Below are positions 37,110 to 38,563 of a DNA stretch of 64,000 bases, piece by piece. This DNA is from Microcoleus sp. AS-A8. Its GTDB lineage: Bacteria; Cyanobacteriota; Cyanobacteriia; Cyanobacteriales; Coleofasciculaceae. The translations under genes were made by a program, and so were the position numbers. The first letter of the stretch is position 1; each line of letters begins with the position of its first letter. The notes below the pieces were generated by a model. That model searched no databases. It was not told the origin of the DNA and saw only the letters and a list, made by a program, of their open reading frames with translations. The stretch lies in contig JAMPKV010000012.1 in NCBI GenBank assembly GCA_039962225.1, forward strand, positions 1-64,000, read 5' to 3'.

Positions 37110-37610
37110 TTAATCTTCTTGTTGGTAAGTTGCTTGTTGCAGTTGTTCGTTGGGAACATCAAAGAGGATTTCAAATTTAGCCGCCGGGATGAAGCGGTTG
37201 AGAAATCGTCGATGATCTTCTGCATCTTGACGATTGGCAAACCGCGCAACTGTATACCGTCGGGCATTGGGTAGAAGTCGGATAATTGCCCAAGGACGGG
37301 AGTAGTCTTCAATTTGTAAACTACGTTCTTGGGGCGTTTTCATAAGTTCTCCCCTGATGTTGGTTAAGGTGCGCTCAATCAGTTGCCAAAGCTGTTGCCG
37401 TTCTGGGTTGGTATTGTTGGGGATTAAAGTCCAATCGCTGACGGGTGCTGGTGCGAATGTGAGAATGTAATCGTCCTGATCCTCTTTGCAAAGCTTCCAG
37501 GATAGGCGTCGAGTCTGTTTTTGGCATTTGTATCCCTGTTGGCGCATGGTTGCACAGATTCTGTCGCCCTCTGTTTGAAGGCGAAGCCAGTCGGAGTGTT
37601 TCATTGTCAA
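37110..37610 (-). CDS. Hypothetical protein
   Basis: 166 residues (or 164 from the second Met). Sequence blocks are WLRLQTEGDRICATMRQQGY, LSWKLCKEDQDDYILTFAPAPVSDW, and a C-terminal half with YTVARFANRQDAEDHRRFLNRFIP. That last part looks like a small ferredoxin-like or SPOR-like alpha/beta unit. No signal peptide or membrane helix. It is transcribed away from the frameshift gene pair that starts at 37799. Family not recognised. Confidence 0.55.
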   Translation of the reverse strand: MTMKHSDWLRLQTEGDRICATMRQQGYKCQKQTRRLSWKLCKEDQDDYILTFAPAPVSDWTLIPNNTNPERQQLWQLIERTLTNIRGELMKTPQERSLQIEDYSRPWAIIRLLPNARRYTVARFANRQDAEDHRRFLNRFIPAAKFEILFDVPNEQLQQATYQQED

Positions 37611-37764: not shown

Positions 37765-37798
37765 ATTTAGGGATAGTTTATGGCAGAGCCAAAAAAGA

Positions 37799-38175
37799 AT
37801 GACGAGCAAGCGCGGCAGACCGAAGTCAGCCAGGGAAAACGCGAAAAACGTATCGCTGATGATCACTCCGTTGGGGTGGACGCTTCTGCAATCTCAAGCG
37901 CAGCAACTGGGAATGACGAGATCAGAACTGGTGGAGCGATTCGCCAGAGGGGAGATTCAGGGGAACCTTTCAGAACTAGCAGAAGAACGATTTCTGGGGG
38001 AATCCTTCGCCAACTGATTGAGGAGAACGGCATTCAGTTGGCTCATTACAAGTCTGAAGTAGAAAGGCTGGAAAGAAGGCAGCGCCAGCTTGAAGAACTG
38101 TTTGAAGAGTTAAGGGTAAAGACTGGCGAAGACCTCGACGATGAAGATGAGGTTGAAGACGAGGAAGGGGAATGA
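37799..38175 (+). CDS. Small regulator-like protein, copy 1, expressed by predicted -1 frameshift
   Basis: Proposed product is 125 residues, read as 37799-37999 joined to 37999-38175. The first frame gives MTSKRGRPKSAR, then GWTLLQSQAQQLGMTRSELVERFARG, a ribbon-helix-helix/HTH-like module with an AT-hook-like RGRPK. It would stop alone at 38017 (72 residues). The -1 frame supplies GGILRQLIEENGIQLAHYKS and a coiled coil ending in TGEDLDDEDEVEDEEGE. The switch is at CTG-GGG-GAA (37994-38002). A perfect 9-bp stem follows. Its stop overlaps copy 2's ATG (ATGA), which argues that the -1 frame is translated. Without slippage a short DNA-binding form is made. The -1 frame alone is open from 37780, but upstream of the slip it is poorly conserved between copies. 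Confidence 0.7.
37994..38042 (+). promoter_or_regulatory. Predicted -1 frameshift signal, copy 1
   Basis: The G5 run is 37996-38000 in CTG-GGG-GAA. GCCAACTGA (38009-38017) pairs perfectly with TCAGTTGGC (38034-38042), 9 bp with a 16-base loop. The stem begins 8 bases after the last G, or 6 after the A-site codon. This is the geometry of a stimulatory hairpin. Confidence 0.65.
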
Positions 38176-38563
38176 CGAACAAGCGCGGCAGACCAAAATC
38201 AGACAGGAACACGAAGACAGTGACCTTGCGCGTCGAGCCGAGGGACTGGGAACTATTCCGTCAGAAAGCCAAAGCTCTAGGGATGTCCAGATCTCAGTTA
38301 GTGCAGAGGTTAGCCAGGGGAGAGATACGGATCGATTCAGCGATACTCACAGAGGAACTACTGCTGGGGGAATTATCCGCGAACTGCTTGATGAAAATGA
38401 TGAGTTAACGGCATATCACAGTTCGCAAATAGAGTTTCATAACAACCGACTCAAGCAGCTAAGCACCAGAAGGGCGAGGCTTGAACGTCTCTATGGCGAG
38501 TTGCAAGCTAAGACTGGCGAAGAGCTCGACGATGAAAATGAAGTTGACGACGAGGAAGAGTAG
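38172..38563 (+). CDS. Small regulator-like protein, copy 2, expressed by predicted -1 frameshift
   Basis: Proposed product is 130 residues, read as 38172-38369 joined to 38369-38563. A strong ribosome site GAGGAAGGGGA precedes the ATG, which overlaps copy 1's stop. The first frame gives MTNKRGRPKSDRNTKTVTLRVEPRD, then ALGMSRSQLVQRLARGEI, about half identical to copy 1. Read straight, it stops at 38408 (78 residues). The -1 frame gives GGIIRELLDENDELTAYHSS and a coiled coil ending TGEELDDENEVDDEEE, again matching copy 1's tail. The switch is at CTG-GGG-GAA (38364-38372), as in copy 1. Likely a DNA-binding regulator that makes short and long forms. Confidence 0.7.
38364..38426 (+). promoter_or_regulatory. 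Predicted -1 frameshift signal, copy 2
   Basis: The G5 run is 38366-38370 in CTG-GGG-GAA. GCGAACTG (38379-38386) pairs perfectly with CAGTTCGC (38419-38426), 8 bp with a 32-base loop, starting 8 bases after the last G. An SD-like AGAGGAA lies at 38351-38357, about 8 bases before the slip codons. The third pair is G-C here and C-G in copy 1. Confidence 0.65.

Follow-up and report, generated by a model that had tools for sequence, protein, structure and literature searches.

The locus described here raises the question of how a protein can be made when its two parts are written in different reading frames. The window, the whole stretch of 64,000 nucleotides of Microcoleus sp. AS-A8 that was analysed, contains two tandem genes, each with an N-terminal module in one frame and a coiled coil with an acidic tail in the -1 frame, a layout which the original prediction had described and which is present in the sequence of both copies (Table 1). 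It was suggested that programmed -1 frameshifting produces a short and a long form from each gene, and this is the reading that our comparison of sequences supports, on the strength of a slippery heptamer kept in phase, an RNA stem peaking at a fixed distance from it, covariation within that stem and a change of the conserved frame at the site. We consider it very probable that programmed -1 ribosomal frameshifting adds a coiled coil to a ribbon-helix-helix-like (RHH-like) protein; the overlapping reading frame could supply the coil alone.

The sequence CTGGGGGAA was found at the switch site of both copies, at 37994 and 38364. The predicted switch at CTG-GGG-GAA yields, in the fused reading, L-G-G-I in copies 1 and 2, and the stems were found where they had been placed, each beginning 6 nt past the heptamer, or 8 bases past the G run, and their loops measure 16 and 32. 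The overlap between the -1-frame stop of copy 1 and the ATG of copy 2 was likewise seen. In copy 1 the 0-frame TGA of ORF A (38015-38017) lies at the end of the 5' stem arm, and the ORF B start of copy 2 sits within the tail of copy 1. The pair stands alone, the genes on either side being on the opposite strand. Diverged relatives show this switch again, with its heptamer and stem, so that the arrangement in the window is more than chance.

Table 1. Positions of the two tandem copies and their parts in the window.
Feature	Positions	Strand	Details
ORF A, copy 1, RHH-like N part	37799..38017	+	72 aa; RHH_4 12.3 bits, cut-off 25
Slippery heptamer GGGGGAA, copy 1	37996..38002	+	0-frame codons CTG GGG GAA; kept in relatives
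RNA stem-loop, copy 1	38009..38042	+	GCCAACTG (38009-38016) with CAGTTGGC (38035-38042); z -3.2; family covariation
C part, copy 1, -1 frame: coiled coil and acidic tail	37996..38175	+	stop 38173-38175
ORF B, copy 1, -1 frame	37780..38175	+	131 aa; own ATG 19 nt before ORF A start; open through N part
ATGA overlap, copy 1 -1-frame stop and copy 2 start	38172..38175	+	
ORF A, copy 2, RHH-like N part	38172..38408	+	78 aa; NikA-like 27.3 bits (cut-off 27); RHH_1 18 bits (cut-off 20.5)
Slippery heptamer GGGGGAA, copy 2	38366..38372	+	
RNA stem-loop, copy 2	38379..38426	+	GCGAACTG (38379-38386) with CAGTTCGC (38419-38426); z -2.0
C part, copy 2, -1 frame: coiled coil and acidic tail	38366..38563	+	stop 38561-38563
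ORF B, copy 2, -1 frame	38141..38563	+	first ATG 31 nt, another 25 nt before ORF A start

Relatives were looked for by profile search, which gave matches in 43 of 386 genomes of the phylum and some match in 174 of 388 genomes of the order, many of these to the N part only. From among the matches listed in the 388-genome search, 59 regions were picked for short open frames and added to the search loci. An exact-pattern search of the 386 genomes, written with TTG rather than YTG, was too narrow and matched 2 genomes, one match (L051) being a site without the gene. Of the 109 distinct N-domain ORFs, 94 were short, with no more than 130 codons; the other 15, long proteins whose N part is similar, were set aside as a different kind. 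A similar N part joined in frame to another C part was observed in L021, L027, L028, L036, L038, L042, L044, L045, L080 and L081, proteins of 227-547 residues in total that end near LNKW or a close variant. Among the 94 short relatives, the -1 frame stayed open for at least 30 codons beyond the 0-frame stop in 83, and the +1 frame in 11; the same switch recurs in cyanobacterial relatives, for which the original prediction had proposed a search. The 76 genes with an in-phase heptamer come from 43 genomes, including that of the window, in seven family-level groups. Of the predicted protein layout, the acidic tail holds for the window copies and for some relatives but not as a general feature, the aligned members sharing a coiled-coil-like C part.

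Two further genes of the same type were found in the window's own genome, on contigs C8 and C37, and one gene of the same type as the window copies in genome G007. An uncultured Coleofasciculus assembly (L020, on the same contig as G006:C427) has four tandem copies, all with the -1 switch at CTGGGGGAATC and with the stems GCCAACTG/CAGTTGGC, GCCAATT/AATTGGC (twice) and GCGAACTG/CAGTTCGC. Behind the fourth of these copies, at L020:2400-3420, lies an inserted recombinase-like gene, presumably resembling IS607-type elements, followed by a C-part remnant. Viral and plasmid origins were considered and rejected: there was no match in phages (one query) or in viral contigs (two protein scans and one pattern scan), and of the plasmid queries one gave none and two gave 3 and 1 weak N-part matches. 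Three of these four (L142, L143 and L144) have 5-8 stops in the -1 frame and are not of the type described here.

If the frame of translation changes at the heptamer, selection should be seen to change with it. In close pairs, changes in the N part fall mostly at 0-frame third positions: 22 of 22 when L105, L107 and L108 are compared in three overlapping pairs, and 12 of the 18 that separate window copy 1 from its L020 relative. C-part changes tend to occupy third positions of the -1 frame, as do 5 of 5 over the initial 100 bases of L030/L032. The tendency is weak for window copy 1 (13 of 25) and weaker still in the L067 pairs. Such comparisons support the view that the conserved frame changes at the heptamer and that the -1 frame is under protein-level selection past the site. 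In one relative, L070 (1486-1878), G7 replaces G5 and the N part, coil and acidic tail run in a single frame through FLGGILKQLI. This junction contains the L-G-G-I that frameshifting would produce, and the -1 frame is still stop-free through the N part, with an ATG 19 nt upstream; L070 may be a recently fixed fusion or an assembly difference. That the locus as a whole reflects sequencing errors, or decayed genes carrying frameshift mutations, is hardly credible. Remnants do exist, L006 being a C-part remnant only and L020 carrying the one behind the recombinase-like gene, but against decay stand the same -1 arrangement in 83 of the 94 relatives, the spread of the 76-gene set over so many genomes, and the selection visible on both sides of the switch.

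A slippery heptamer in X_XXY_YYZ phase was present in 76 of the 83 relatives with an open -1 frame, to which the count was restricted, when taken from a fixed list of 22, compared with 5 and 9 in the other phases. This is the unconditioned figure; the 76-gene set demands a heptamer from a list of six, and its heptamer content, 34 GGGAAAA, 32 GGGGGAA, 4 GGGAAAC, 4 GGGAAAG, 1 AAAAAAC and 1 AAAAAAG, is in that sense by construction. Among the seven genes lacking an in-phase heptamer, L097 and L103 have GGGGGAG and L062 and L065 have, by eye, AAAG at the site, and in L079, L114 and L135 no slippery site could be recognised. Shine-Dalgarno-like (SD-like) 4-mers were found 8-20 nt before the heptamer in 27 of 76 genes, a modest enrichment over the 10-17 of four control windows. 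The original prediction had also raised transcriptional slippage, in which RNA polymerase inserts an extra G at the run and the lengthened mRNA is then translated. The G5 runs at 32 of the 76 sites would allow this and the same junction would be expected, but 42 of the 76 are GGGAAAA, GGGAAAC or GGGAAAG, with runs of only 3 and 3-4 bases, and a stem downstream of a slip site suits ribosomal better than transcriptional slippage; because of both, slippage by the polymerase is disfavoured and we regard it as very unlikely. For ribosomal frameshifting, GGGGGAA is not a standard X_XXY_YYZ heptamer, and we infer that slippage there would require either a single-tRNA slip on G_GGG or a mismatched A site. 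PMC4066793 reports positive results in E. coli for 61 of 64 X_XXZ_ZZN heptamers, obtained with a single set of conditions; GGGGGAA is not among these.

The stem was found to be a feature of the family as well. When the best stem was scored at each offset in the 76 genes, the position of the 5' arm peaked 6-7 nt past the heptamer, where 45% and 46% of the genes scored 17 or more, a share that does not exceed 8% at any offset before +3 or after +12. In a set thinned to 45 representatives, 30 have a strong stem 5-8 nt past the heptamer and 15 lack one in that interval; eight control windows gave 0-4. For the covariation test, sequences were selected solely by the first three bases of the 5' arm, which gave 33, of which 32 were tested (L118 was left out). 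The first eight pairs were 83.3% paired over all 33, and in the 32 tested sequences 83% of the stem cells were paired, as against 12-44% when the arms were slid. Cells changed on both sides numbered 24, compared with a shuffled mean of 9.1, and the covariation score was reached by 0 of 500 shuffles, in agreement with the claim that pairing is kept as RNA. Two measures of this test are unremarkable: the number of pairs with a double change (5), which 72 of 500 shuffles reached, and that of further pair types (12), which 301 of 500 reached. In the -1 reading, some stem changes alter no amino acid in either arm, for example CAA/CAG opposite TTG/CTG. Other members have a different stem sequence and a longer loop, as with GAGCCTCAA/TTGAGGCTC in L022. 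Six folds compared with shuffles gave z values of -2.0 to -5.5, and for L034 a different hairpin is predicted as the minimum-energy fold of 70 nt.

The -1 frame is open not only past the slip site, as frameshifting would demand, and in most members it extends back through the whole N part as an overlapping frame, ORF B. The N parts of the 76 genes contain 37 stops in the -1 frame, compared with 184 +- 13 in synonymous shuffles and 147 +- 9 when codons are permuted within genes, and 61 of the 76 are stop-free over the N part, a number that never exceeded 21 in 500 shuffles. Only TAA, TAG and TGA are depleted in this way (ratios 0.17-0.24; the next-lowest T-initial triplet, TAT, is at 0.80), and the +1 frame within the N part of the same genes shows none (447 against 439). 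Control genes show a mild -1 stop depletion, 444 against 514 +- 16, far weaker than in the present family, and of 112 such genes 4 lack stops over 65 codons. Among the 11 short relatives that lack the -1 extension, the one-frame fusion L070 has no stops and the others have 3-8 apiece. The result persists among the 45 representatives, with 30 stops against 118 +- 10 and 35 of 45 stop-free.

ORF B also tends to have a start of its own. Starts and SD-like motifs were counted in the 68 of the 76 genes having an N-part ATG and enough upstream sequence. In 56 of the 68 the -1 frame offers an ATG or GTG between 8 and 24 nt ahead of the N-part ATG, with -13 and -16 the commonest positions; the other frames do so in 7 and 9 genes, and of the control genes 7 of 110 have such a start. 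Among the representatives the figures are 32 of 42, with 6 and 4 in the other frames. Window copy 2, whose ORF B starts just beyond the counted range of -24 to -8, is not among the 56. SD-like 4-mers well spaced for the ORF B start occurred in 23 of 56, a test that could use any of several starts, compared with 6 of 68 for the N-part ATG and 5-12 of 68 at four control positions. A complete ORF B, with a start and open to the slip site, is found in 50 of 68 genes, and in 14 of 68 it is closed by stops within the N part, with the -1 C part and heptamer retained; it is closed in three of the four L020 copies. ORF B looks to be kept open rather than conserved in its amino acids, because the third-position changes of the N part alter them. 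The -1 reading of the N part has less K, R, Y and C and more D, Q, S and G, a composition bias that is suggestive and depends on the codon model.

These observations bring up the possibility of overlapping genes with no frameshifting at all, in which ORF A encodes the short protein and ORF B the coiled coil, the heptamer and stem being by-products or having some other role. The starts, the stop depletion and the better placing of SD-like motifs before ORF B than before ORF A would fit such genes. This explanation does not account for the in-phase heptamers in 76 of 83 relatives, including AAAAAAC and AAAAAAG, where both proteins differ, or for a covarying stem at the spacing of known signals, and both the closure of ORF B in some members and the one-frame fusion of L070 run against it, so that we judge it unlikely. 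Translation of ORF B alongside frameshifting is likely, and the locus could then make three proteins, namely a short binder, a binder with the coil and the coil without the binder.

As for what is bound, DNA is the probable target of the N part. The RHH_1 cut-off was passed by the N part in two of four relatives; in the window copy 2 passes the NikA-like profile only, and copy 1 passes no RHH profile. A model built from 48 N parts (mean pLDDT 79.5) has helices at 23-35, 40-48 and 56-64 and no strand assigned in the monomer, and its best matches among solved structures, at E 0.41 or worse, include Arc (entry 1myl), PutA, AmrZ and antitoxin DNA-binding domains. When ORF B of copy 1 was modelled with no alignment, confidence was low to about residue 70, after which comes a single long helix (73-115) that begins at the slip site. 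The fusion proteins that were compared gave no profile match above a transposase cut-off, IS701 transposase reaching 13.9 bits against 150. From fold and context, the members of the family are likely regulators.

The context in question consists of 12 twenty-kilobase neighbourhoods of relatives, taken from long contigs that were chosen, not random, three of them from one genome. An integrase-type gene was found nearby in each, and it is for this reason that the family may control mobile elements; 8 of the 12 have in common one integrase cluster together with another cluster, related to IS110 transposases, and the other 4 have a second integrase cluster, Pfam having confirmed one member per integrase cluster. 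Within the window no toxin gene was found in the same operon, as a type II antitoxin reading would have it, both flanking genes being on the opposite strand. The divergent neighbour at 37110-37610 (-) has relatives beside such genes on contig C8 of its own genome, in L020 and in at least two other genomes, its cluster comprising L001, L002, L005, L030 and L067. A gene carrying a DnaB-like helicase N-terminal domain is found close to some of the Nostocales-like relatives, and a KGK-domain gene close to others (flanks of L072 and L033). In genome G591 there were at least 10 near-identical N-part matches among the matches listed, and three of them (L154, L155 and L156) lie in repeated multi-gene islands with an integrase cluster, a multicopy mobile or prophage-like element.

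Programmed -1 frameshifting of bacterial cellular genes has been described for dnaX, csoS2 (carboxysomes) and copA, and to our knowledge conserved cases of it are known for few cellular gene families of bacteria. The present family resembles these three in its slippery heptamer, in a stem a few nucleotides on and in a short and a long product from one start, but it differs in belonging to another protein family, in adding a coil rather than removing one, in its tandem duplicated copies, and in a -1 frame that has its own upstream start and is open through the whole first domain. In IS1 and IS3 elements the second frame starts close to where the first gene ends, whereas here its start precedes the first gene and, as noted, transposase profiles are not matched; what is shared is that two overlapping frames are joined by a -1 shift at a slippery heptamer. 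CopG/Arc/NikA-like RHH proteins are alike in the profile matches of the N part and in the resemblance of its model to known DNA-binding domains, and differ in that the C part is here in another frame. The review PMC5009743 has a section on csoS2 and also treats the transposase genes of IS1 (InsA/InsB') and IS3 (OrfA/OrfB), whose two overlapping frames a -1 shift at such a heptamer brings together. We found no paper joining ribbon-helix-helix with frameshifting in such an arrangement, and no literature report of the present cyanobacterial RHH-like family, which may be contained in the cluster tables of PMC3711429, a source available to us in part.

On the preferred reading, a ribosome starting at ORF A would make the N part and meet the slippery heptamer and then, about 6-7 nt on, the RNA stem. 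With no slip it would come to the early stop and release the short protein; with a slip it would read on in the -1 frame, adding the coiled coil and in some members the acidic tail. A ribosome starting at the upstream -1 start, present in most members, would make the coiled coil without the DNA-binding part. All products would be made, and the forms would presumably pair via the coil to tune repression. In tandem arrays, ribosomes finishing the -1 frame would terminate at the next start, and since the stop overlaps that start, the copies may be coupled.

A more tentative proposal, which we regard as plausible without favouring it, is that a DNA-binding regulator and its own antagonist are both written into the locus, in overlapping frames, the coil-only protein, with its disordered leader, pairing with the fused form and disarming it. 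If this were true, the proportions of short binder, assembled repressor and antagonist would be set by frameshifting and start choice, each later copy of a tandem array would depend for its translation on ribosomes finishing the preceding one, and the second frame would be held open by selection across the full length of the binding domain, with its amino acids not conserved. The family as a whole would add likely regulators, found in 43 genomes and carrying a covarying signal, to the frameshifted cellular genes. The overlapping start is the more surprising part, as a whole domain would be readable in two frames, and an annotation that allows one frame per locus would miss the second.
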